A stretch of 23,230 bases of DNA from Pigoraptor vietnamica (lineage: Eukaryota; Opisthokonta; Filasterea), in the NCBI GenBank assembly GCA_943704525.1, contig CALSCQ010002849.1:1-23230 (forward strand), written 5' to 3'. This document shows positions 1,522 to 22,700 of the stretch, piece by piece (within the stretch, counting starts at the first letter, position 1; the number at the start of each line of letters is the position of its first letter). Both the position numbers and the translations under genes were made by a program. The notes beneath the pieces are model-generated. The model saw only the letters and a list, made by a program, of their open reading frames with translations, was not told the origin of the DNA and did no database searches.

Positions 1522-4378
1522 TTACTCTGCGCCTTCCGTTGCGACCTTTTGCCGCTTGGCAGAGGCGCCGCCCTCCGCCTCCTCTTCCGCCGGCCGCTTC
1601 TCCGATGCACCTGCACAATCATAATCGTCAAAGTAAGAGAGACTGTACAAAAGTCACATAGGATGCCGTCGCGCCACACCCACCGGCCGAAGCGCTGTCG
1701 CCCGCCGTCCTGTTGCGCCGCGCGTCCGGGGCTACGGTCGTGCCGTATAGCACATAGCCGCCGTGCGGCATTCCGTTCATGGTCGGGTGTGTGCGTGCGG
1801 GAAGGACCTGCGTAACAGCGCGCGACAGAGATATACACAGCGCACGCCGTTGTAAGTACGCTATACGCGTTGAGATTTTTCCATGTGCAACAAAGGACTA
1901 TTCGAACACAGCCGCCGCACCTGGTACTCTCGGAACCAATTCTCGGCAATCTCGACAAGCACTGCGGCTCCCTCTGCGCGCAAGTGCGTGGCGCACTCGA
2001 CGAGAGGCTGCCAAGAACACGAGCAGCACGGTGTGAGGAGCAGTTGCGACTGTAAATGTGTGCACGAGAAGCACCTGCAACGCACCTCGATAAACGGCGA
2101 GTACACCGAGAACGGCCGCGAGGGCGCGACAAACGGCAGAAGAGTGTCCAATACTTCCTTCGGGTGATAGCGGGAAGCGACGAGCAGCCTGTTCATGTGT
2201 GTTTTGTGCGAATTGCATGTGAGCGTTGTGTTGCAAGACGAGAGTGATCCGCGCTGGTGACAACATAAATGCGAATATTGCGGCGCAGCGGACCACCCAC
2301 GTGTCAAACCGTCCCGCGCTCAGCAACTGCCGCGTTACGTCGTGCCTCTCGCGCAGCGCAGCGCGGCGTTCCTCACCCGCCACGCGCTGCCTCTCCATTT
2401 CCTCGGCCGTGAGCTCCACCTTCTGCTTCCTCCGCCCACGCCCCTTCTGTGGCTCGTTCTTCTTCACACTTCCCGCGCCATTCGCGTTCGCCGCCGCTCC
2501 CGCAGCACCCTCTTCCCCAGCCACATCGACCTCCATGGCCTCTGCGCCGTCTGTTTCACGCGGCTCCGCGCCCGCACCCTCCGCATCGACAGAGACTGCC
2601 TCGGGGGCGTCCGGCCGCGACGACGGAGGCGGTTGTCCCGAATGCACCGATGCGAGCCATTCGAAGCGATATGAGCGCAGATTGCCGAGAATGGGGGGAG
2701 GAAAGTTCATCGCACGCACGATCTGGTCCGAGGGGGTGCTGCTGGCGTGCAGCTGGACGACCGTGCCCGTCTCTGCACGCGCACACGCGGGCATCATCAG
2801 CGGCACGCTCAGACACATACAGCAGCAAGGGGCCGCACATTCTTGCCGCGCACGCAACCCACCGCCCACGCGGTCCAATACCGAGGCCGAGAGAAGACCA
2901 CCAACGCCATCGACGACGAGGCACTTGAGCCCCGAGTGCACGTTCGCCGTCGTCAGCATGAGTGCGAGCGAATCTGGTCGCATGTCGCTGCAGGGCGTAC
3001 AATTATGCGCACAACGTAAGAAAAGGTGAAGGGCGCAGTGGCGTTTGGAGACGGAAGAGGCGACTGTTCGTTGGATGCGAATGGCGCCATTGAGCGAGAA
3101 GAGAGCGCGGCGTTGGAGTTACGGCGAGAGGCTCGTGCAAACGCACCAGATTTTCTCGGGATCGTTCGTAAAGTAGAGCTCACAGAGTGTGCGGGGTGTC
3201 GGCCTCACGGTAGTAATGCGGGGCATGTACCTGTGTGCCATGCATGTGAGAGAGAGAGAGAGAGAGAGAGCGTGTGCACTGGATGGCGAGTTTAAGCGCC
3301 GCGAACTAAATGCGCCCCAAACGTCTCCCTACGCAACGACAGCCGCACAATCGCTGAAGTGGCGGCCAACCACGAGACATGACAGGAGAGGACATAATCG
3401 CCGGCAGAACACGCGCACTTTTTCTCCTTCTTGCGGAGGTATTTCGCCTGCGAAAACTCCGTCTTTGTCTTGAACGTGGCGCTTCCCTCGACGAGCTTGG
3501 CGATCAATTCCTGCGATCACAGCACACAGCACATTAACACACACGCACACACGCGCACTTACGCACGCACACACACACACACACACACACACTCTCTCTC
3601 TCTCTCTCTCACGCACACTCACACACACACACTCACACACTCACACACACACACACATGACGCACGCATGAGAACGGTTATGCACTACAGACGCAACGCG
3701 CCTTTCCAGACACGCCCTGCTGCTTCATCTCGGCGATTTCTTCGGCCGTGAGCGTCTGACTCCGGTTGTCATCAACAATGCTGCGGTTGTCCGACGACGG
3801 CTCGCCGTCCTTAAGGCCCTCCACCGCTGAACGGGCGCACGCACATCAGCCTCGGCACAGGAACACACAGACATCGCCCACCACACACAACCACACCTTC
3901 CACGCACACGGCCGCGCCTTTCACGCACTTACGCGCACCACACACGACACATGCACATAAACGCCAGACCCCTTAACGCAAGCAAAGGCGAGAAAAAATA
4001 ACCGCAGTCGTCGTCGCATGCTCTTCGAATAACCCACCCGCCACCATCACGTCGCGCGGGCGTTCGATGCGCACGAGCTTTTGGCCCACGAGGTCGTAGT
4101 AGCCCCCAAACGGCTGGCCGATCAGCGCATCGGCCGAAATCCACAGCTTACCCAACCGCACATTCCTGTGTGTGCGCGCCCGTGCGTTGCGTGAGTGCGT
4201 GCATGCGCGTGTCGTGCGACGAATGCGCGCGTGCATGTGCAAACGGCGCAACACGCACTGCAGACGTTCGCACGCACCCCTTGGTGCGCACTTCGGCCAG
4301 TCGCGACTCCTCGTTGTCCCTCTGGAGAATGACAAAGTTTCCCTCACAAATCACCGCATCGCCCGCCCTCTCCTCCAT
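1522..4378 (-). CDS. TRM6: tRNA (adenine(58)-N1)-methyltransferase non-catalytic subunit TRM6
   Basis: Eleven exons on the minus strand: 4378-4278, 4165-4038, 3826-3714, 3510-3419, 3230-3147, 2987-2863, 2772-2301, 2188-2086, 2007-1921, 1807-1684, 1610-1522 (stop TAA). Phases match at every junction. The product is about 505 residues; human TRMT6 is 497. Family blocks appear in order: DNRSIVDDNRSQTLT, LVEGSATFKTKTEFSQ, KYMPRITTVRPTPRTL, NDPEKICDMRPDSL, the NVHSG...VVDG Rossmann-like block, LLPFVAPSRPFSVY, ENWFREYQV and PARTHPTMNG. TRM6 pairs with the catalytic TRM61 to make m1A58 in the tRNA T-loop; it binds tRNA and lacks a working AdoMet site. A charged, Lys-rich linker (GRGRRKQK) in exon 7 and a KR-rich C-terminus could serve tRNA binding or nuclear import. 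The least certain border is the exon 7/8 junction, where I chose donor GTGGGT at 2300. Confidence 0.95.
3231..3418 (-). repeat. TRM6 intron 4 with a (GA)n tract
   Basis: This intron lies between TRM6 exons 4 and 5 (donor GTGCGC, acceptor CACAG). It holds an uninterrupted GA run of about 23 bases at 3248-3270, close to the acceptor. On the sense strand this is a CT run, so it can also serve as the polypyrimidine tract. Confidence 0.8.
3536..3657. repeat. CA/CT microsatellite inside TRM6 intron 3
   Basis: About 120 bases of (CA)n, then (CT)n, then interrupted (CA)n lie inside the 203-base TRM6 intron 3511-3713. On the TRM6 sense strand they read as GT and GA tracts. The coding exons on both sides keep their frame. 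Confidence 0.9.
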
Positions 4379-7402: not shown

Positions 7403-9837
7403 TTACGCGCCCGTTCGCATGATCGGGCTGGTGAAGGGGTCGGCCGTGGCGACGCCGCGCACGCGCCCGTTGACGAGTTCGCTCTCATCGACGTCGACGT
7501 TGACGATGTCGACTGTGGGTGGGTCGGGGCCGATCGCGCCCTTGTGGTAGATGGGGTTGCAGAATTCGACCGTCTGTGGCACATACAGAGGGTTGATGTT
7601 GGATTGCGCGTTGAGAAACTCCCGTTCCCACTGTAGCGATAGAAGGAGAGGAGGCGTTAGTTAGTTTGCGAGAGCCGCACGTGTGTTCTGTCTCGCAAGT
7701 GTGCGCGTGCATTTCCACGTGCGCGTGCATGTGTGCGCGAGTGACACCCACCTCGGCATCGTACTTGGCGAATCCGTAGCGGCGGTAGGCGAGCAGCGCA
7801 AGTGGCACTGCCAGTACGCACCCGCCCAGCGTCGAACCAAGGATGATCGCGAGCATGTTGCCGCTCGAGTGCCCGCCACCCCCGTTGACGATCCACGGCG
7901 TCGTAACGTTCGTGGGGTTGTTGGGATTGCCGCCGTTAACCGGCGCTGGCCCAACCCACACGGTGACGTTGACCGGCGCAGAGTACTCGGTGCCGTCGTA
8001 TGCGATGAACGTGAGAACGTCCGTGCCCGCAAGCACGGCGGTGTAGACGAACGTCGTGTTGTTGTTGCCAGAAGCGCTTGTTGTGCTGTTCGTTTGCGAC
8101 GTGTTGTTCCCCGTGGAGGCATTGGCGGCGCGCGGCAGTGTGACGGTGCCGAGACGCCCCGCGACGACGAGTACGAGCTGGATGGCATCGCCGTCCGGGT
8201 CGGTTGCGTTGAGGGCGACCGCAATGGACTGTCCCTCGGTCACGTTCACGGCGCGAGGGAACGCGACGGGAGCGTCTGCGCGTGACGTGGAGGGTAAGCG
8301 TTTGTAAGTGTGTGCAGATATGGAGAGATGACGTCCGTTTTCTTTCGTGCACAAGCTTATCAAGGCCTGTCGCATGAAAGACACTCACGGTTCACGTGGC
8401 GCACCACGAAGTCCACGTACGCCACCGTCGAATTGAGCCTGCCGTCACTCGCGACATACGCGATGCGGTCTGTCCCGTGCCATATCCGGGTGGGCGTGTA
8501 CGCGAGCGAGCCGGTGCTGGACGCAAGCCCACTCACGCTGCCGTGCGACGGCGGCGACACGACGTAGAATGAAACGGCGTCGCGGTTCGCGTCGGTGGCG
8601 AGCAATTGGAATGCGACGTTCGAAGCGTCCTCGGACAGTTCCACGGTGAGGTTCTTCGCGACCGGCGCGACGTTCTGCGGCACGAGCGTGGTTGTGATCT
8701 TGTAGTTGGACGCTGTCGTGTGCCGTTCGGCGTCTGCGGCGATGTGGCTTGCAGGGTCAGACACCAGTGCTCCCTCTCGCGGGTGTGCATACATACATGC
8801 TGGAATACGACGCGCACGTGCACGCACACATGCACGCAACGCGTTTCACACTCGATGCGCACTTGGATGGGCACAGCGGGATACTTACGGAACACATTCA
8901 TGACGTACGAGCCGTTGACGCGGAGTCCGAGCGTGTCGAGGGACACGGAGCACGTGCGGCGCGGGTGAATGGATCCGAGGTCGCACGTGGTGAGGTTGCC
9001 GTCGATAAACACCCACAGGTCGTCGTCTCCGGAGAAGGAGAACACCTCACCGCCTGCGGCAAGGACGACTCTCAGTTTCACGCGCAACACAAGAGAGCTA
9101 GCATCAAGCGATAAGTAACACAATTTCTGTTCCGACGTGCTCACGGTGCGCTGCGACGAACAGGGCCGTGCGCGTCGACGCGTGACGCGACTCTCACCCT
9201 TGTAATAGAAAGGGACGACGAACTCTGTCGTGAACCAGAAGTTGTTGCCGTTCGACGGCTCCCACACGCCGTATCCCATGTTGTTAATCGGGAAGAATTG
9301 GCCGCCGGGAAGGTTCGTCGAGTCAAAGACGAACTGGCCGGGCGTCGCCGCGTCCTCGGTCAGCGTGATCTCGACGTCGTAGCGGAGGTTGGTGCCTGGC
9401 ACATCCTTGTACCTGTGCCGGCGATTCCGTTTGTCGAGAGTGAGTTATTCGCTCATGATGCCGACGAGCGAGCTGCAATGCGGAAGGCATTTTCATTCCA
9501 TGTGCTTTGGAGACATGGCTCACCGCACCCACCACTCTTCGAAGAGATGGATGCCGTAGTTGGACCGCGCAATGTTGGTCGTGGTCGTGTCGGGCCATCG
9601 CAGTGAGGTGCTCGTCCTCTTTGCCGCCTCAACAAAGACCGGCGCCACGTCACTACCGAGTTGCCGCCGCACAAGCCCTAGCTGCTCAGTGCTTCCCGAC
9701 GTGGGCGCCTCGAAGTCTGAATGAAGGCCGCTGAAGTCGCGCACAACGCCGCGCAGCTTGAACGTCTGTTGTGCCCCATGCGCGCACGCAAGAAGCGAGG
9801 CAGCAACCACAAGCACGAGACCAGCTCCGTGCGCCAT
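7403..9837 (-). CDS. Type I membrane protein: fibro-slime/PA14 domain, two cadherin-like repeats, integrin-beta-like tail
   Basis: Six exons: 9837-9533, 9412-9198, 9053-8889, 8733-8389, 8275-7752, 7630-7403 (stop TAA); phases match, giving 593 residues. Residues 1-21 are a signal peptide (LVLVVAASLLACAHG). About 25-245 form a fibro-slime/PA14 domain: VVRDFSGLHSDFE, EEWYKDVPGTN, GQFFPINNMGYG, GGEVFSFSGDDDLWVFIDG and FHAERHTTASNYKI all match family signatures. Two cadherin/Ig-like repeats follow (about 247-343, APVAKNLTVELSED; about 344-455, ALNATDPDGDAIQL), the second with a dense N-glycosylation insert. The membrane helix is 484-506 with a GxxxG (GSTLG). The 87-residue tail has GFAKY, WEREFLNAQ, NPLY (531-534) and NPIY (543-546). 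NPxY pairs in integrin-beta tails recruit talin and other PTB-domain proteins. I infer a surface adhesin coupled to the cytoskeleton. No VWA, PSI or EGF domain is visible, so it is not a canonical integrin beta. Confidence 0.9.
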
Positions 9838-10455: not shown

Positions 10456-12168
10456 ATGGCTCGGGCCGTGACTCACCCGTCAGCAGTCCTCGTACTGTGC
10501 ATGTGTGCCGCGATGATTGCCACAAGTGAGTGGAGCACCAGCGGTTGCCTGGGATTTTCCGTCCCTACATCCCATCTCACACTGTACTGGCCTTGCAGCG
10601 TCAGCGGGCACCACCGTGAATGCCGCGACACAACCCATCTGCGTGAACAGCGGCAGCGACAACATGTCACAATTCGGGTTCAGTGTCTCTCTAAGTCAGA
10701 CGATGCCGCCAACAATGGTATGCGTGCCTCGGCTCGTTATCGCGCATCGCCAATCGAACCGGAGAGTAATCGTTCCTTTTGCGCCCGCACAGGTTGTGGG
10801 AAGTCCCTGGTCGTCGACGGTGCGCATCTACACCCTGAACACGACAACATCGGCCAACAGCACAAACTCGACCGCCTCGTGGACGCTCGTGCAGACGGTG
10901 ACGCGCACGCAGTCCGGCACGCCGTTCTCTCGCGCGCTGTTGCCGCTGTTCGGCCACTCGGTCGCCATCACACCGGACGCGCGCTTCATCGCCGTCGGTG
11001 CGCCAGGTGGGTCTTTGTTGGCACGCGAAGCAATAGCTGTGCGATTGCTCTCAGTAGTCGCTGTCATTGTAGCAAGGGCCCAATTGACTTGCTGGGCTTT
11101 CTGTCTGATCACATGCCACGACAGGTTATGGCTCTGGCGGGTCGATGGAGACGTGGACGTACTCGGGTGCTTTCATGCTGCTCACGCGCCTCCCCAACGG
11201 AACATACTCGGTGCCGTCGAGCTTCACGCAGCTTGCATCCCCGCAGGTGAATGGCCGGCTGCCTCGCTGCACGCAGTATCCCCAAGCCCATGCATGACAT
11301 ATCGCCTGCTCGTCCGCTCATCGGCGCTGCATGTGTCTCAAATAGTGCATCTCCCCTCCGCCCTGCAGTTCTGGGATCGCTTCGGTTCCCGCGTCTCCTT
11401 TTCGCCCAATGGCACATGGCTCTTCGTCACGGCAAACGGCGGATGGCGCGGCGCCTCCCTCTCGACCTCTGCGGCCACCTCCTCGATGGGCAACACCGGC
11501 GTGCACGCTTACCGCCGCAACGACACCACGGGCGCCTACACGTACACGCAGTCGATTCCCTCCTTCTCACTCGAGCCGTTCGGTCTAATCGGCATACACG
11601 TCGCCAGTGGCATGTCCGGGAACACGACGTTCCTGGCCGTGCGGGACTACGTGGACGACGCGTCGCTTCCCCTCACGCTCGCGCAGCAGCAGCAGAACAA
11701 GTCGAGCGAGGCGCCCGTGCAAACGGCGGCTGTCGTTGTGTACTCCTTTAACGGCACGCGGTGGGTGCGCGAGCAGACGATCGCCAGCGCAGACCCGCGC
11801 GGCCCGGAAGACTGGTTCGGGGCGGGTCTCGCGACGCATCCTTCGCAGCCGTACGTCGTCGTAGGAGCGCCCAAGTCCGGTCGCGCGGTCCACTTTTTCG
11901 CGCGCAATGGCGCGAATGCGGGCGTCAACGCGACGTTCTGGGGCTCGGTGCACTCGGCCGACAATCCCGGCGTGGGGGGAAGGTCCTCGTTCTTCGGTGG
12001 GGCGATGGCATTTGCGCGGGAAGGGCGCGTGCTCCTTGTCGCGGACGCAACGGCGGGGGGACAGCCGCGCGGGACGGTAAGCGTATTTCGCGCGTTCAAC
12101 ACTTCGGAAAAGATGGCGGGAATCGACGAGCTGCGCCGGCAGGTATGCAATAGACGCACGCACACACG

Positions 12169-12204
<36 letters not shown>

Positions 12205-13110
12205 GAGGCTATGCTCGTTCGAACGCATATGTGTGTACGCCTTCCCTCGCAGCTGTTCCTCTTACACTCACACGCAATGCAGGCTCCGCCGGGCGACCAG
12301 TTGTTCCGATACGATCTCGCGGCCACCCTCGACAACTCGTTCAATGCCACTCTTGGCGGGAGCGCGCCCGTGAACGACCAGTTCGGTGCGGCACTCGCGA
12401 CATCTGGAGACTACGCCGTAGTGGGCGCACCCGCCATCGGCTGCGTGTACACCTTCGCACTTCCGACCATCGGTGAGTGTGCGTGACAGAGTGTGAATTC
12501 AAAACGCCCCATAAGAACAACGTTACACGTCCTTCGCGACAACCAAAGCCCAAGTGCAGCCGTCGTTTACTGACGCACCGCGTGTTCGCACCCTTCGCAG
12601 TTTACGTCCCTCCAAGCGACACAATCGATGGCGCCTCCAATCCGAACATCACGCACCCCACCGCCACGGCAGCGCCGACGCCTGCCGCACCGACGGACGT
12701 CAGCGCGCCGCCCGTTTTCGCCGCCCGCAGCTCTTCGAATGACATGCTCGCACTCATCCTCGGTGTCGTGTGCGGCGGTGTCGGCTTGATATGCGTCGGT
12801 GAGTACCGCAGGAGCGAAGTGAAGTGTGTAGCATGCACGGAGTTGGAAAACACATTCATTGTGCAGAGGGACACCCACGTTTGCACACGCTATGTCTCCG
12901 AGCCCGCGCATGAGCTCGCGCATCGAGACAACCGCGCTCACTCTCAGTCCCTTGCGTGTCAACGTCGCAGGCGCCGGGAGCTGGCGATATGCCATGATGC
13001 GCCACAAGCGACAGAAGATGGAGCTGCTGAAGCAGCGCAACGACCTCGTTGCCTCGCGCGCGATTGTTGCGAGCGACGGCACCGGCCGCTTGTCGGGGGG
13101 ACCGCTGTAA
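10456..13110 (+). CDS. Type I membrane protein with seven FG repeats (FG-GAP beta-propeller, integrin-alpha-like)
   Basis: Eight exons: 10456-10525, 10599-10717, 10793-11006, 11125-11246, 11369-12142, 12283-12472, 12601-12798, 12971-13110 (stop TAA); phases match, giving 608 residues. The N-terminus (SAVLVLCMCAAMIAT) is a signal peptide. Seven FG motifs sit at about residues 49, 116, 180, 246, 325, 384 and 467 (FGFSV, FGHSV, FGSRV, FGLIG, FGAGL, FGGAM, FGAAL), 59-83 residues apart. Several are followed by GAP or GSP blocks (VVGSP, AVGAPG, VVVGAPK, VVGAPA). Seven such repeats make the closed beta-propeller head of integrin alpha chains. A Pro/Thr-rich stalk leads to a membrane helix (about 545-566, MLALILGVVCGGVGLICV) and a basic 42-residue tail starting WRYAMMRHKRQK. 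I see no DxDxDG calcium loops and no canonical GFFKR. It is divergent with the fibro-slime gene, whose membrane helix is strikingly similar. Confidence 0.88.
12143..12282 (+). repeat. Intron 5 of the seven-FG gene with a (CA)n tract
   Basis: This 140-base intron (GTATGC...TGCAG) carries an uninterrupted CA run of about 28 bases (roughly 12174-12201), preceded by ACGCACGC-type repeats. Confidence 0.85.
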
Positions 13111-13549: not shown

Positions 13550-15850
13550 TATGCGTCTCGTTCGCCTTGGCGATTCACGGAGCGTTCAAGTGCCCGTCTC
13601 GACGTCGCCGATTGCACTGGTGAGCCTGAGACGTCTTGCGGCCTGTCGTGAATTCAGTGTCTGTAGCCATTCCCCCATTCGGCCCAAACACAGCGTACTC
13701 TGTTTTTATCGCCACTGTCAAATGAGGCGGTCGTCGTCCTCCGACACATAATCGCACGCTGTGCGAAGTATGATGTTGCTCGTTACTATTGACGGCAATC
13801 AACAGAACAACCACGACATTAACATCGCCCGATGAAATGGACGCACGACTTCCTTCACTGCTTCGCACGCGGGCTCAGTAACCATGCCCGTCTCTAATAG
13901 GCCACTTCGCATTGAATCGGAGGTGGGGCCGAATCATTCAGTGAAGTTTTTGAATGCGCAGCACTTGCTAAAGTGTCTGCTCGACGTCCGTTTGCACTTA
14001 TCCCCCGGATGCAGATTGTGGCGGTAGAATTTTCAAATTTGCCGGGACCGGCCACTCTTTTATGTTACAGACCGGCTGCTGCCGCCAATGTCTCCGTCAT
14101 ACTCGCTTGTGCATGGAATGGCGGGCCAAGTGCCTCTCCCTCCCGTGGTTCCAGCGCCAGCAAGAGTCGACGATCTCACGCGGGGCGTGAGCAAGCTCAG
14201 CTTGAATGTTGGTCAGAAGGCGCGGCTGAAGGCGTAGCTCCGCAAAGCAAAACAGTCGACAGAAGCGAATAGCGCCGAAGGCGTGCGAAAGGGCCTGGCC
14301 AAGGGGCTCCCGCCTGTCATGGTGGCTCATGGTGGCTCAGCGGTGAGGGCGCTCACGCGGAAGTTTAAAGAGGGGATTGACGTCAAAATCCCCGTGACGC
14401 TCCGGACGCTGCCCGTCGGACCTTTCGAAGTGCGAGGGATTCGACGAGGACACGGAGGAGGCCATAGTAGAGTGGTTTGTGGACGAAACCCTTCACGGAG
14501 AGCTCCTTGACTCTGTCCGGTCGGTTTCCAATTCATTCCTTTCGAGGTGACGCAGCAGGCGGACGGCGAGACGAACGCGACGACCGGCGAGGCTCTGGTG
14601 CAAACCCCCCTCGATACCCTTGTGTTCCGCTTGTTCGAGCAGCTCAACGACCGACGCGCCCTTCAGGTTCGTCGTTCACCGCTACGTGACGATGGGCACG
14701 GCATCGAAGAGTATCAAGGGAACTTCGGGGTCGTCGGGCTCCGCAAAGCCCCCCGCCGAATCGACGCATCCGGCCAACTCGCAAGTCGTGGCACGGTGGC
14801 TCGACCCCGCCGTCGACGTTTTGTGCCTCGTGGACGAGGACAAGGCCGCTAAGCACCCAGTCGAGAAAGCCCGCGACCAGCTCGAGGAGACCGGCCGGTT
14901 CACGTTCCGCCGCTACCCACGGCACAATGGAGTCCCTTCTGGCCACCACGTGCACGGGCGCGCACGTGCGCTTTTATGAGCGCGTGCCAATGGCGGAGTC
15001 CGTCGAGGGGTCGATGAAGGCCCGCTCGCTGTGGGGCATTGGCAGCGATACGGATGGCCAGGACACGCCACTGGACGTTCGCCGCCCAGGTGTCGCGCTG
15101 CGTCTCTACCGGGTCCTCCGCCTCGTCGAGTACCACGCGCCGACGTCCCATTTCAACGCTTCACGCAACAAAAAGGGCTTCATCAATCAGGTGATATTTC
15201 GGACCACTCCGAAAGGGCTCAGCGTCGAGAAATCGGTCTTCCCTGATCGTGACGCTATAACGCGAGGGATGGGAGGCATCGAAGTGCTTAAATCGCTCTA
15301 CGGGGCCGTTTGTAGACCCTCGTCAGGCACGCGCTTCATCGTTCACGGCATACTGGACGTTGACGCCTACATTTACCGAACCCACGACATTGGCTTTCGG
15401 CGCATCCTGCGCATCGTCGCCGAGGCCCAACTGGCGCTGCGTTGCGTGCTCGAAGGGCTTAAGTGGCTGCACGCAAATCGCATGGTCCACCGTGATCTCC
15501 GCTGGCCCAACGTGTTCAAGGTTGCCGCCGACCGCTTCGTCATCATCGACTTGGAGCTTTGCGCGAAACTGGATGTTGCGAAGGGGATGACCGAAGGGCA
15601 TGCTTCGCAAAAAGTTCTGGCCGGAGCGCGCTGATGAGGAGGAGCGTTGGGCGCCGAGACACGACTTGCAGCAGATGGCGAAACTCATGCTGGCGGCCCC
15701 GAAAGCCGGCGAGGAAGTGGGCGTCTCGTCGGTCATTCTCAAGGACCCTAGGATTCTGGACGTGCTGTCGTCATGGCCGCGCTGCAGCTTCCCGATGCGA
15801 CGGCGGAACTGGGACTTAGCAAGCTTCCTGCGCGTCCGATTAATTTCTGA
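13550..15850 (+). pseudogene. Decayed kinase-like gene, possibly Crinkler/RHS-effector kinase related
   Basis: Coding signal runs along the plus strand but changes frame several times (about three to five breaks), so the gene looks broken. The clearest part, about 14930-15840, resembles an eccentric protein kinase: a catalytic-loop-like HRDLRWPNVFKV at 15488-15523 followed by FVIIDLELC. The HRD-x-RWPN pattern recalls the kinase modules at the C-termini of Crinkler-type and related secreted effector proteins of protists and chytrids; that link is inference from memory. Upstream segments (about 14080-14640) encode helical, charged sequence of unknown family. A possible short N-terminal piece begins near 13551. 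No introns are evident, unlike every intact gene in the window, which fits a recently acquired or multicopy family. An unusual but intact gene with undetected introns is a less likely alternative. Confidence 0.5.
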
Positions 15851-16232: not shown

Positions 16233-19193
16233 CTAATTGCATTGTGTTAAGTCAACACAAAACGTCTCGGGGCAACCCCTTCCGACACAGCCTGGCAGGA
16301 GACGCAAATGAACAGTCATTACGCGCACAGGACCACGGGCCCTTGTTGCCGACAGTGGAGACTCGAGCTTCTGGGCGCAGCTCGAGCAGGTGTCCACGCG
16401 CTGCCGCGGCGCGCACTCCGCTCCGTGCACGCAAAAGCTCGCGACAGGACAGGCCAACTGCACGCCACGCATCGCCTGAGCATTTGGAGGCCCTTGCATT
16501 AACTCTTCGATGATCCGGTCCTTTTCGTCCACGGCGTCCAGCAGCCGCCCGAGTGTTTGTCTGTAACGCAGTCCACGCCCTGACTCGAGGGGTCGCGATG
16601 CATGCGTGGATTACAGACTGCCATCCACACAGCTCAACGACGCAGCCTGTTCAGCGCCACGTACGACGAATACCGCGCCTCGACGAGAGCGCCCACATCA
16701 ATCTGTCGCACGCGGCGCTTATCCGCAGCTGGAGGGGCCTGTCGCGGGGGCCGGTATCCCGCAGCGTCCCCAAGCGCGGACATGGCGTGCGAGATGCGAC
16801 GCTCGGCTTCGGCGTCGTGTTCTTCCTCCCTGTCCTCGCCAGCCGAGCCGCCCGATCCGCCAAAGTTAGCTTCCGTCCGCTCGTCGCGGAGGGCAGTCGA
16901 GAGGAAACGAAGCACCGCCGTGCGAAAGATCAACTCGGCCGTGCGTTGCGAGATGCCGTCGCCCGACAGACCAGACAGGCGGCAGGGGAGCGGCAGCAGC
17001 GCACACAGATCACCAAAGGAGTGGCTCGTTGCGCCCTTCACCGTGACCCACACGCGCTGGCCGTTCGAGGGGGATGCCGACGAGCCCGCGTCAGCCGATG
17101 GGTCTAGAGCGGCCGGGGGAAAGGCAATCTGCGACAGCGCGGAATAGCGCTGTGCGGGATCGGCGCCGTCGCCAGCAACATATGTCTCCGTGTTTGTGGC
17201 CGAGTGTTGGTGCCTGCGTGCCCCTCGTTCCGAGTCGATGAGGACGACATGGGCGCGGCAAGTGCGTGCGACGTCTTCCTGCGCGAGCGGCGACGACCCT
17301 GCGCAAAGGCATTGGATAGTGAGTTGCGCGTTCACTGATAAAGCAGCACATGACAAAGAAAATGTAGCGAACACGTACATGCATCCACGGCGACCGCGGC
17401 GGCGATGCGCTGGTCGTGGAACGCGGCACACAGCGCCGTGGAACCTCCGAGACCGATGCCGACGACGCCGACGCCGCATTCCAACGCAAGGCGGCCGCGA
17501 AACATGGGACTGAGCAGGGCGTGCGGGGAGTGGTGAGGGTCATCGCAATGTACAGTTGACGTGCGAGCTCATTGCGTCGATTACAGCGGTCAGTGGACAC
17601 GAGGTGTGCGGGGAGAGGTCATGGTCATCGCAATGTACAGTTACGTGCGACGAGCTCATTGCGGCAACTACAGCGGTCAGTGGACAGCGGTCCAAACCCC
17701 CGCGAGTGCGCGAATTAGAAGAAGTTCGGCCGAGACGACGACTTACACTTCACGCCCGGCGTTCAGGTCGAGCAGCTTGTCCAGCACAAATGACACCTCC
17801 GACACGCGCTGCTCCAGTTGTCGCCGGCGATAGGCCCGCACAACGCGCGACCCACTCGCCTCACTAGCCCCAGCCGCGCCAGCCTTCTCTTCTACGCCGT
17901 CGTCGTCTGCACGCGGAGGGTCGCAGTAGGGAATGGAGCTGCCGTCCGGGTACGGTGCCACGCACGCGCTCCCGTCGGCGTGGTTCACGCACGCGACAAG
18001 GAAGCCGTGGCTAGCAAGCTCACACGCCAGCCGCCCAGAGAACGAGTCGGACTGCCTGTCGTCGTGCGAAACCACCACGCACCGCAGATGTCGCTGCGCG
18101 GGCGGCGCCGTGTTGTTCGCGGAGGACAGCTGCTCAAAGGCGGAGACCGTCGCGCGCGCTATCGTCGCGCCCTCAAGCGCCCGCAACGACGCGTTCTCCA
18201 AGTGTCCCGTGACGAGAGAGACCCACCGCGGCAGCCCGGAGTGCGCAATCGTCGCATCAACAACAGTCCCTGCGGATACGCCGTCGCCTTCTGCGGAAGC
18301 GACTGCCGCAAAGTATCGCGCGGCGGGGCGTGCGTCGTACTCGTTCTCCATGGCGGGATAGAAGAGGCGCGCGACGACGTCGTGCTCTGACTCTGCGTGC
18401 ACTGGATCGCGGTCGTTGTCCGTGTTGTGAGGCGTGAGGGCGATGGGGGCGATCCCGGTACCCGTGAGACGCACTCGCAGCGTGCCGACGGTGTGCGGAC
18501 CAGTGGGTCTTGGAGGGACGACGACAGGGAACTGGGCGCAAGGCCATGAAATGTGAGTGCATGCGTGTTTTTGTTGCGTTCGGAGAAGGATGCGCAAGTT
18601 GTAATCGGCGAAGGAAGCAGGAGGATGAACGGGCAAAGATGCCGACAACACTCACCAGGAACGTCAACAAGCCCGAGACCGCGATTGCACTGCATCCGAG
18701 AGAGGGGAGCGAGCGTTGGCTCATGCACACTGTCGCACACACTCAACGCGTACATCACACTCTCCCCCCTAAGACATGCGCCTACACGTGACATTAGGAC
18801 GCACACACAATTACGAACGTGAGCGCTCGCAGGCACGCACCTCCACATCGACACGTCCAGCACAGGCCCCCCATACGACGCCGGCAGCATCACCCCCACC
18901 GCCACCGCATACAGAGGATAGAGCTGCCATCGCACGCCTTCGATAAGCGCCTGCAGGATGCAGAAGACGGCCGGTAGCGTGTGCACGTACACACGCGCAA
19001 CGTCCAAGAACGACAACGCGCCATCGCCACTCCCGAGTGAAGGATGCCGCGTGCCACTCAGCGCGGCGCCGGGTGAAATGGCGTCGCTGTGGCCCACTAC
19101 TTCTTCGTGTTCGCCAGCGGCCGGAAAGTGAAGATGGCGGAGGTGCGTGCACAGCGCGCACGCAAGCAGCGCAAGTGCCTCGTAGCGAAACAT
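16233..19193 (-). CDS. Membrane-anchored PAF-acetylhydrolase-like alpha/beta hydrolase, nucleophile Ser replaced
   Basis: Six exons: 19193-18841, 18689-18656, 18531-17747, 17509-17379, 17298-16665, 16560-16233 (stop TAG); phases match, about 754 residues. The N-terminus has about four hydrophobic segments (ALALLACALC, VHTLPAVFCILQALI, YAVAVGVML, AIAVSGLLTFL) and an EGVRWQLYPLY loop. The hydrolase part begins PPRPTGPHTVGT, as in PAF-acetylhydrolases, followed by VARLFYPA and ELASHGFLVACVNHADGSA. The nucleophile elbow reads GIGLGGSTAL where human PLA2G7 has GHSFGGATVI, so Gly410 replaces the catalytic Ser. Next come DQRIAAAVAVDAW (Asp433 kept; human ALDAW), VLIDSE and KGATSHSFGDL (His527 probably kept). 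Family members hydrolyse short-chain or oxidised phospholipids; this one may be inactive. The last exon is uncertain: without splicing at 16664, translation ends at a TGA at 16634. That exon adds a coiled segment (LLDAVDEKDRIIEELM) and a Cys-rich end. Confidence 0.8.
17521..17686. repeat. Tandem duplication of about 85 bases within an intron
   Basis: Copy 1 (17521-17599) and copy 2 (17606-17686) share GTGCGGGGAG, TCATCGCAATGTACAGTT, GAGCTCATTGCG and TACAGCGGTCAGTGGACA in order, with small indels. Both lie in the 237-base intron between exons 3 and 4 of the PAF-acetylhydrolase-like gene. Copy 1 abuts the exon 4 acceptor. Confidence 0.9.
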
Positions 19194-19697: not shown

Positions 19698-19723
19698 CTA
19701 CTCGAGTTCGCCGACCTTCTCGC
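19613..19723. repeat. Nested short direct repeats at the myosin 3' end
   Basis: The block ACTCGAG[CT]TCGCCGACC occurs at 19651 and again at 19700, where it encodes the last residues of the myosin (VGELE, stop). The block TCGCCCTCAGCACACACGCA occurs at 19613 and at 19671. Together they describe a partial tandem duplication of the end of the coding region into its 3' untranslated region. Confidence 0.85.
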
Positions 19724-22700
19724 GGATGGCCTTGAAATCAAAGTTGCGCGGCAGCGTGCCCGTCTCCATGAACTTGTGGAACTGCTGCTCGTTGAGCCCG
19801 CCCAGCAGCTCCGCGGGGATCGCCTCGCTCGGCATGCGCGTGCGAAGCTTGGCGGCCGCGGGCTGGTTCTTCTGTGCGTCGATGAGGCTGTTGGCGCTCT
19901 TCGGGCACGTGACGACGAGGCTCTTGTGGTCGCCCTTCTCGATCGCGAGCTCCTCGACGTCCTCCACCTTGAACTTGATCATCTGCTGCTTGTCCTTGAC
20001 GCTCACAGAGATCTGCTCGACAATGTTGACCTTGAACTGGAACTTGGTGTGCATCTCGTACTGCCGCGCGATCTTCGTCACGAGCTCGATGAGCGTCTCG
20101 GTCATAAAGATAAAGTCGCCCTTCTTCTTGTCCTTCGCCGGGAGCTCCTTGATGTCAATGTGCAGCACGAGGATAAAGTCGTTGAACGGGCTCACGGAGA
20201 GGCCGCTGAGGGCGTCAAAGGGGATGATCGACTTGACCTTGAACGAGATCTCGAGCACGTACACGTTCTTGTTCGTGACGACGAGGATACGCGGCTCGCG
20301 CTTGTAGTTCGCGCGGTCCATCTTCACGACGAGGCTGCCGTAGATGATGCGCTCGTCGGGGTTCGCAAACAGCGTCTGCCACCGCTTGCTGCGCGCGGGA
20401 GTGAGGTGGGAGGGTACAGAGTGAGCCTCTTGGTGCGACAATGAGCGTTGCACACACGCACACACACAATACTAACACGCAATGCGATCAAGCGTAGGCA
20501 CAACCCTACGCGCGCACACCCACATGTTCTTGTCCGTCTCGTACGCGACCATGTTCCCGCGGAACAGCTCCGCGACCGACGCCGGATACACCGACTTGCG
20601 GCCGCTGAAGAGATCCGACGCCGTCTCCTTCGCCATGAGCATCTCCTTCTGCTCGGGCGTTATCAGCGCGCGGTACTTGCCCGCCGCCCACCGCTTGAAG
20701 ATCAGCTGGAGGTTGAACACCGTCTCCTGCACCCAGCGAACCTTCGTCGTCGGCCACGACCCGACCGTGTACTTGTCGCCCTTCACGTAGCCCGTCCGCT
20801 TCGTCACCTTGAACGCCGCCGCGACGGCCTTGAGCGTCGCGCGCGCGAGGTGGCGCTTGAACACGCGGCGGATGCGCACGGCCGCCGCCGTCTCGTTCTT
20901 CTTGCGGTTGTAGGCGTCGACGCGCTTCTTCACCCACGCCTTCTCCGTCGGCGTCATCCAGTCGAGCGACTTTTGCGCGGCCTTCGTCTCGCAGTGTGTC
21001 CCGAGCCACGCAATGTACATCTTGCGCAACTTCTTCACGCGGTACCGACGCAGCGCGCGCCGAATGTTGCTCTGAATCTTGATCGTCGCCGCGCGCAGTT
21101 TCTTGTACGCCGTGCGCTTGACGTGCATCTTCCAGGTCGCCTGCATCTTGGCCACGAGAATTTGGATGCGCTTCTCGCGGAGGTCCTCGATCGTGAAGAT
21201 GGTCGTGGGCGACTTGATGAAGAGCTTCGTGTTGCCGTACAAAAAGGCGGTCGAGGGTATCTTGACATACTCGAGAATCTTCTTCACGCCCTCCTTCGCA
21301 AAGCCCTGTCGGCGGCGCGTGCGGTCGTCGTCAGCAAGAGAGAGGAAAACAAGCACACACACGCAGCACATTCGAGGCGGAGATATCACGGGGCACATCA
21401 TGTTGCGTATATCGGCCGCGACGCCCCAACACCAAAAACATCCTCGATTAAAAAGAGAAAAAGAAAGAAAGAAAAAGGAGAGAAAAGACACGACCTCGCA
21501 CGCGCTGTGCGAACCTGGTCAATGACGCGCGACGTGATGAACTTCTGGACGCCGGCCTCGGCCACGCTGAGGCGGCGACCGCTCCTCGACATGCGCCGCT
21601 GGGGTGCGCCGGGCTCCTCCCACTGCGAGGACACACAGCACGCGCGCGTCAACAACACAGCCACAGTAGGTCACAACGAACAAGCCAGTCTATTACTCAA
21701 GTCAAAATAGGTTGCCGCTGCACAATATCCTACAGACGACGCAGACATGCGATCTCGCTGCTTTTAACCCAAGCAAGAAGTCGCCTTCGCACCTTCGGCC
21801 ACGTCGCCGGGCAGAGCATCTTGTAGCGGTCCACGAATCGGCTGTACAGCTGCCGGAAGGCGTAACCGGCGCGCCGCACGCGCACGTTCTCGAGGAGACC
21901 AAGGTAGCGGATCTGTTTCGAGTTGAGAGGCGCACGGGTGTTAGGGGCGTCCGTTGTGCGAACAGGTGCGTCACGCGTGCGCGGCTCTTCTCGGTGGCAG
22001 CGCGCGTGCGCATGATACGCGTGGGACAGTGGCATAGAATGAGACAACGCGCAGCATGTGGCTGCAGGCACACCTGGTGGAGGCAGAGCTCGTCGTCGAA
22101 GAGGCCGCCCTTCTTCTTCTCGTTCGACTTGATGCAGCGCACATAGTGCGGCGACTTGATCAGCAGCGACGCAGCGAGCTCGTTCACCTGCGGCGGCACG
22201 GGAATTCCAGACGTCAAGACGCGATGAACAGCGCACACACGTGCCCAATAGACTGTCACCCACACTTCTACGACGGAACAAGACGCACGCAAGGACGCAC
22301 GCACGCGACACTGCGAGCGCATTGAAAGTTTGACACGCACCGACTTCTTGAACTGCGTGGCCGCGGTGACCGGGCGCTTCATGAGCTCCTGGTCCGAGAG
22401 GCCGCCCTCGGGGAAGATGCCCTTGAGGCGCTCGTTCTTCGACGAGAACATGGCGCGCGAGAGGTCCTTGAAGAGCGTGTCCTTGTTCTTGTCAAGGAAG
22501 CCGTTGCTGTCGTACGTCACGTCGCCGGCGTAATCTGCGCCCGTGGCGTGGGTTAGGCAGCCTGTCGATATAGTGTGCGTCTGTGTGTGTGTGTGTGCGT
22601 GCGTGTGTGTGTGTGTGTGTGTGTGTCCGTGCGTGTGTGTGTGTGTGCGCGCGCGCGTGCGTGCGTGTGTGTGCGTGTGTGTGCGTTTGTGCAAGAAACA

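Follow-up and report, generated by a model that had tools for sequence, protein, structure and literature searches.

In the genome of the filasterean Pigoraptor vietnamica we found a gene for a single-pass membrane protein that is most likely an adhesion receptor and, through an integrin-type cytoplasmic tail, a putative talin binder. The gene lies on contig CALSCQ010002849.1 (assembly GCA_943704525.1), of which we analysed a stretch of 23,230 nucleotides, referred to here as the window. The encoded protein, hereafter the receptor, combines a fibro-slime ectodomain with a tail that carries two NPxY motifs 12 residues apart. Taking all observations together, we consider it fairly probable that this is a talin-linked single-pass adhesion receptor of ancestral origin, which stands beside integrins in this organism and would serve as a membrane anchor of talin in fungi reported to lack integrins.

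A fibro-slime receptor with paired NPxY motifs

The receptor gene was rebuilt as six exons on the minus strand (9837-9524, 9412-9198, 9053-8889, 8733-8389, 8275-7752 and 7630-7403), which keep the frame, are separated by GT..AG introns throughout and encode 596 amino acids. Behind the membrane helix, NPLY (N534) and NPIY (N546) follow each other at exactly 12 residues within the tail YRRYGFAKYDAEWEREFLNAQSNINPLYVPQTVEFCNPIYHKG (residues 510-552), after which another 44 residues lead to the C-terminus. An earlier note on this DNA had described two integrin-beta-like motifs at this spacing, and the rebuilt model confirms them; its numbering, N531 and N543, was three too low in each case. The exon 5/6 junction that it had drawn at 7752/7630 is correct, as relatives align across it (KYDAE|WEREF against RFQKTWEKEF and KFAATWQEEW).

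Could such a pair arise by chance? A pair of NPx[YF] motifs at spacing 12 appeared anywhere in only 4 of 100,000 shuffles of the receptor protein, and translating the window in all six frames gives no NPx[YF]-x8-NPx[YF] besides that of the receptor tail. Among the 236 proteins listed by three protein searches, 11 contain the 12-spaced pair, namely six relatives of the receptor and five integrin betas; this strict pattern misses other integrin betas among the same proteins. On rarity in shuffles, uniqueness in the window and presence in relatives, we reject a lone chance pair.

The ectodomain passes the curated cut-off of the fibro-slime family TIGR02148 (88.8 vs 45 bits), and Pfam matched Big_9 and Cadherin_4 at residues 252-393. 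Of the fibro-slime/PA14 ectodomain proposed earlier, the fibro-slime part holds, but PA14 (PF07691) stays under its Pfam cut-off (20.5 vs 24 bits). A Pfam search of the full receptor at E up to 10 found neither the VWA-like beta-I domain PF00362 nor EGF repeats nor a VWA domain; the ectodomain is indeed unlike an integrin beta or the VWA-bearing Sib proteins, as had been claimed.

Relatives in an aphelid and Blastocladiomycota

Is this tail peculiar to one organism? A search of ~5.8 billion proteins, with 8000 candidates scored, gave 261 matches at E up to 0.001, of which the best 120 were listed; a follow-up search, its profile built from the window together with six relatives, gave 518 at E up to 1e-10 (8000 scored, best 120 listed). 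The top seven matches were Amoeboaphelidium, Blastocladiella, Sorochytrium, Paraphysoderma, Catenaria, P0003 and P0004, from an aphelid, Blastocladiomycota and a metagenome, and the same seven head the profile search, six of them by construction. The remaining organism-named rows among the matches listed are bacterial, and P0041 is a EukProt transcript. All seven relatives share a layout of fibro-slime domain, repeats and membrane helix. Shortly past the helix, NPL[YF]-x8-NPLY is present in six of the seven; the earlier note had named beforehand the loss of both motifs in relatives as speaking against its reading, and these six keep both pair and spacing. The model of the seventh, P0004, stops before the tail, with an end that resembles an unspliced intron. 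Catenaria P0007 has a seemingly wrong N-terminus and partly missing repeats, and its tail is intact.

Across the seven aligned tails, window included, W522, E525, N534, P535, L536, E543, N546, P547 and Y549 are invariant. Pooled identity between the window and the six relatives amounts to 40% in the tail, 23% in the stalk and membrane helix and 26-31% in the repeats, and only the fibro-slime core is more conserved than the tail (52%). In a tree of 26 fibro-slime cores (tail excluded, 18 non-family rows hand-picked from the listed matches, midpoint root), the window and its seven relatives form one clade (100/99), within which the window branches outside the aphelid and fungal rows (95/91), the pattern expected from descent from an opisthokont ancestor. 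The family would have been present in the common ancestor of a Pigoraptor-like filasterean, aphelids and Blastocladiomycota, or would have spread between these lineages. The earlier description of an independently assembled or domain-swapped receptor is borne out in that an integrin-type tail sits on a non-integrin ectodomain, but the combination is not private to the organism, as the family is common to an aphelid and Blastocladiomycota.

Bacterial and protist TIGR02148 proteins share the fibro-slime domain with the receptor. The NPxY pairs looked for in other fibro-slime proteins are present in the six relatives but in none of the bacterial and protist ones listed, and the 18 of these in the tree stand apart from the tailed family (100/99). 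Within the Pigoraptor genome, no paired motif was seen in the fibro-slime paralogues C1253, C156 and C805, read in single frames in which intron-split pairs would be missed; C1253 alone among them shows its tail clearly, and this tail has no NPxY. C1253 and C156 are similar giant proteins with a fibro-slime domain and then long repeat arrays (HYR-like by eye), the former with a membrane helix. In C805, fibro-slime-like exons precede a large number of repeats that look EGF-like by eye.

Integrins and talin in the same genome

In the assembly to which the window belongs (32.5 Mb in 1395 contigs), beta-I domains lie at C661, C928 and C829, with one under the cut-off at C373. On Integrin_b_cyt, the tails at C661 (KSEWKSDSNPLYQSSVRETENPLYVGRTGQT) and C928 (RSEWKADQNPLYQSSVRETENPLYVGKS) score 60.4 and 62.4 bits, and that at C373 (DKKEWERFEAEKAKSAWKADQNPLYVASTIEHVNPIYDQ) lies ~3.8 kb behind the weak beta-I match on the same strand; all three integrin beta tails carry the paired motif. 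On this reading of its genome, the organism has ordinary integrin betas besides the receptor. Behind its best match, the C661 integrin finds Capsaspora and P0214, whose label Clim_evm we take to stand for Corallochytrium. The best match itself is EukProt Opistho-2@93183 (55% identity over 745 residues), and clone Opistho-2 is reported to be Pigoraptor chileana (PMC7147346). Among the 25 C661-integrin matches listed, 14 name no organism or only a clone or gene label; none of the 11 that do name one is a fungus, which would lend weak support to the absence of integrins in fungi. A glutamate three residues before the second motif is common to the tails of C661, C928, C373, Capsaspora and P0214 and absent in the human tails compared. 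In the fibro-slime family, this residue (E543) is likewise present in every aligned tail.

A talin with FERM_M, IRS and Talin_middle is encoded at C232. With its F3 domain as query, 24 PDB sequences score at E up to 1e-10; talin-2 of 3g9w, an entry that also contains integrin beta-1D, comes first (6e-55). The vinculin family PF01044 occurs at two loci, C606 and C1369, and a second IRS-type gene appears by eye to be a MyTH4-FERM myosin. The kindlin N-domain PF18124 was not found in the genome in a search in which no positive control matched, nor was the integrin alpha Ig domain PF08441, in a search that likewise had no matching control. FG-GAP matches are present at C584, C547, C1027, C1022, C819, C244 and C1014, of which C584 and C547 were read; C584, with three such matches, resembles by eye a GPI-specific phospholipase D, and the other five loci may yet include an integrin alpha gene. 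At C834, near 7481-7597, a membrane-helix frame is weakly like that of the FG-GAP protein encoded next to the receptor (E 0.023), and ~0.75 kb further on the same strand a frame ends in a lone ENPLF. C158 encodes, near 30358-30474, a single-pass protein with a long tail and several tyrosines in motif-like settings.

Integrin likeness beyond the two motifs

Does the likeness to integrins extend beyond the motifs themselves? A profile of seven membrane-and-tail segments of the family, with integrins left out, was run against 177,635 PDB sequences. Integrin beta chains took ranks 1-6 of the 21 rows at E up to 10 (beta-1 twice, then beta-7, beta-1D, beta-2 and beta-3, with E values of 1.2e-4, 1.2e-4, 1.4e-4, 0.0072, 0.0094 and 0.034), and with the full-length family profile three of the four PDB matches at E up to 0.01 are integrin beta ends.

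The seven-tail model gives 27-32 bits to the integrin tails of C661, C928, C373, Capsaspora and P0214. When N, P and Y/F of both motifs were held and the rest was shuffled, none of 1000 shuffles matched the scores of C661 and C928, while human b1, b1D, b7 and b3 were matched by 10, 14, 22 and 21 of 1000. In the reverse direction, on an integrin model, the counts per 1000 were 7 for the window, 10 for P0001, 27 for P0002, 5 for P0003, 33 for P0005, 62 for P0006 and 13 for P0007. A stricter shuffle that keeps all four letters of both motifs equalled the scores of C661, C928, C373, Capsaspora and P0214 in 28, 15, 14, 8 and 3 of 2000 cases, respectively. Profile-profile comparison of the family tail gave a probability of 95.4 against integrins and of 96.8 against unicellular integrins only, a score equalled in 1 of 300 column permutations. 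The alignment covers the stretch from NPxY to NPxY and little of the helix; the helix likeness drawn earlier between WEREFLNAQ and FEKEKLKSQ is the weak part of the comparison. Based on the shuffle tests and on this alignment of the motif-to-motif stretch, we hold that the distal half of the tail is moderately integrin-like beyond the motifs, and that the proximal helix is not.

Proposed function and alternative explanations

The idea that the receptor is an adhesion receptor using the integrin tail code is supported by the type of tail, by six of seven relatives, by the integrin-first ranking in the PDB and by a talin in the genome, but the phenomenon is wider than the one organism to which it had been ascribed. 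We propose that the ectodomain, lectin-like through its fibro-slime/PA14 kinship, would bind glycans on prey, host or surface, while the F3 (PTB) domain of talin would hold the tail by reading NPLY. The talin rod and vinculin would connect the receptor to actin, and the receptor would act like an integrin beta tail without the integrin ectodomain. The second motif, NPIY, may bind another PTB or FERM protein. Fungi reported to be integrin-less would have kept the receptor as the membrane anchor of their talin.

Several observations weigh against this picture. The profile behind the PDB ranking contains the membrane helix, which raises its scores, and a PDB search with the window tail by itself stayed without a match up to E 10. 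When checked against Integrin_b_cyt (PF08725), as the earlier note had suggested, the window tail fell below the cut-off (15.9 vs 23.4 bits), and only four of the seven family tails match this model at E up to 10, with a best E of 0.011. In the reverse shuffle test with whole motifs held, the window tail is only modestly special, its score being equalled in 67 of 2000 cases (P0001 130, P0002 45, P0003 4, P0005 18, P0006 222, P0007 18). The tryptophan at -5 of the first N, present in 6/6 integrin tails compared, is absent in 7/7 family tails; these carry W at position -12 and either W or F at position -8. The receptor tail also continues 47 residues beyond NPIY, unlike its relatives. For talin in the species of these relatives, PMC5042518 is our single source; it reports that growth on cellulose did not raise the expression of the scaffold genes, and one of its figure legends lists higher values when cellulose is absent.

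A talin-linked receptor could also have come by its tail through convergence on the integrin design rather than through copying from an integrin gene, a sub-question of our explanation on which we put convergence at slightly less than an even prospect. The profile comparison leaves the membrane-proximal helix unaligned to integrins, the W at -5 is missing, the intron lies 12 residues before the first N in the receptor and 8 in C661 and C928, and ~40 residues hold little phylogenetic signal. However, the likeness in the linker that joins the motifs exceeds chance in both shuffles and column permutations, and the C373 integrin stretch NPLYVASTIEHVNPIY is identical to NPLYVPQTVEFCNPIY of the receptor in 11 of 16 positions.

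Less likely, and in our view improbable, is that the motifs serve in endocytic sorting, with other PTB/FERM adaptors as their readers, as in the LDL receptor family, which would make the protein a scavenger or uptake receptor and not a force-bearing adhesin. NPxY is a general PTB-domain motif, and the genome contains a second IRS-type gene, by eye the MyTH4-FERM myosin. The lone ENPLF at C834, which lies behind the membrane-helix frame and possibly in a separate gene, may mean that proteins other than integrins have NPxF tails in this genome. Yet the integrin tails of the genome, Capsaspora and P0214 show the receptor's exact 12-residue spacing and its glutamate three before the second motif, and among the 236 listed proteins the 12-spaced pair is confined to integrins and the receptor family.

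An artefact from a wrong splice or a contaminating contig is very unlikely: the gene model comes from DNA alone and the assembly may represent a mixed culture, since Pigoraptor is reported to be grown together with prey (PMC7147346), but six relatives share architecture and tail, the tree sets the window outside the fungal rows, the GC content of the contig stays at 0.55-0.64 in 1-kb steps, and its simple-repeat-rich non-coding stretches resemble by eye those of the integrin contigs.

Comparison with known receptors

How does this putatively talin-linked receptor relate to known systems? Like an integrin beta, it is a single-pass membrane protein with two NPx[YF] motifs 12 apart, and its NPL[YF] first motif and the glutamate three residues ahead of the second recur in the organism's own integrins, in Capsaspora and in P0214. 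It differs from integrin beta in the lack of EGF repeats, in its helix and in the 47 residues past the second motif. Judged by its sequence, the receptor is not an integrin, because it has no beta-I domain, its tail scores below the family cut-off and the W at -5 is missing.

The Dictyostelium protein SibA is likewise a non-integrin adhesion receptor with two NPXY motifs; it has a VWA domain and the receptor has none, the Sib proteins being set apart here by published descriptions. SibA is reported to bind talin A, with the proximal NPXY motif essential for binding (PMC9197732), and in amoebae to do this job while talin A bears the force (PMC12686525). The Entamoeba lectin and the Acanthamoeba mannose-binding protein are described as lectin ectodomains with integrin-like tails and are suggested talin ligands (PMC12686525); compared by description, their ectodomains are other than that of the receptor. 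For a non-integrin receptor that binds talin by an NPxY tail, SibA already sets the precedent, as far as these sources describe it (PMC12686525, PMC9197732). The receptor family extends this known kind, the non-integrin receptor with an integrin-like tail, and does so with an unusual reach. The family also suggests a transferable integrin tail that can part from its ectodomain, and a coupling to talin that was at no time restricted to one type of receptor.

A candidate talin anchor in fungi

Basal fungi, Allomyces among those surveyed, are reported to have no integrin, yet to possess scaffolding proteins such as talin and vinculin (PMC5042518). The same source leaves room for a yet-unidentified functional homologue of integrin as membrane anchor. 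In Blastocladiomycota, the receptor family would fit this description and is a good candidate for the talin anchor, because an aphelid and zoosporic fungi have it, and fungi are reported with talin machinery but without integrin. We found no account of the family or of its occurrence in fungi in the open-licence literature. It provides a named, conserved candidate for the fungal talin anchor. No chytrid or neocallimastigomycete is named among the matches listed in either receptor search, so the family may not explain talin in those groups.

More tentatively, and with some doubt on our part, the opisthokont ancestor may have had a second talin-coupled receptor, a fibro-slime lectin with a tail derived from integrin beta, which zoosporic fungi and aphelids would have kept after integrin loss, and which would be the missing anchor of talin and vinculin in Blastocladiomycota and aphelids. 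The FG-GAP protein encoded next to the receptor (10456-13110) could then be an alpha-like partner, an idea drawn from position and layout alone.

Features of the receptor gene and neighbouring genes

Table 1. Features of the receptor gene, in positions of the window
Feature	Position	Strand	Basis
Receptor, whole coding region, 6 exons, 596 aa	7403..9837	-	Rebuilt gene model; relatives align over most of the length
Signal-peptide-like N-terminus, residues 1-22	9772..9837	-	By eye; hydrophobic stretch 1-19
Fibro-slime domain, residues 161-248, exons 2-4, introns within	8684..9246	-	TIGR02148
Cadherin-like/Big_9 repeats, residues 252-393, intron within	8136..8674	-	PF17963 3.6e-18, PF17803 4e-15
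Membrane helix, residues ~487-509	7788..7856	-	Hydropathy maximum
Juxtamembrane segment YRRYGFAKYDAE, residues 510-521, end of exon 5	7752..7787	-	Gene model
Intron 5, GT..AG, phase 0	7631..7751	-	Gene model; junction fits relatives
Exon 6, cytoplasmic tail and C-terminal extension, the extension without counterpart in relatives	7403..7630	-	Gene model, alignment
First motif NPLY, residues 534-537	7583..7594	-	N, P and L invariant in 7/7 aligned rows
Second motif NPIY, residues 546-549	7547..7558	-	N, P and Y invariant, plus E543 three residues earlier

The FG-GAP neighbour lies on the plus strand, head-to-head with the receptor, the two start codons being ~620 bases apart. It is a divergent 608-aa FG-GAP_2 beta-propeller membrane protein with a short tail without NPxY, an integrin-alpha-like layout. 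Its membrane segment begins with SSSNDMLALILG, by eye like SSGNMLAIILG of the receptor. In genome searches at E up to 10 neither membrane segment finds the other, which speaks against a shared module.

Elsewhere in the window, a Gcd10p family gene was found at 1898-3118 (minus strand), a protein-kinase-like gene, below cut-off, at 14690-15634 (plus strand) and a PAF acetylhydrolase-like gene at 17743-18651 (minus strand). A myosin TH1 tail exon at 19698-20471 (minus strand) belongs to a class I myosin gene that seemingly extends to ~23 kb.
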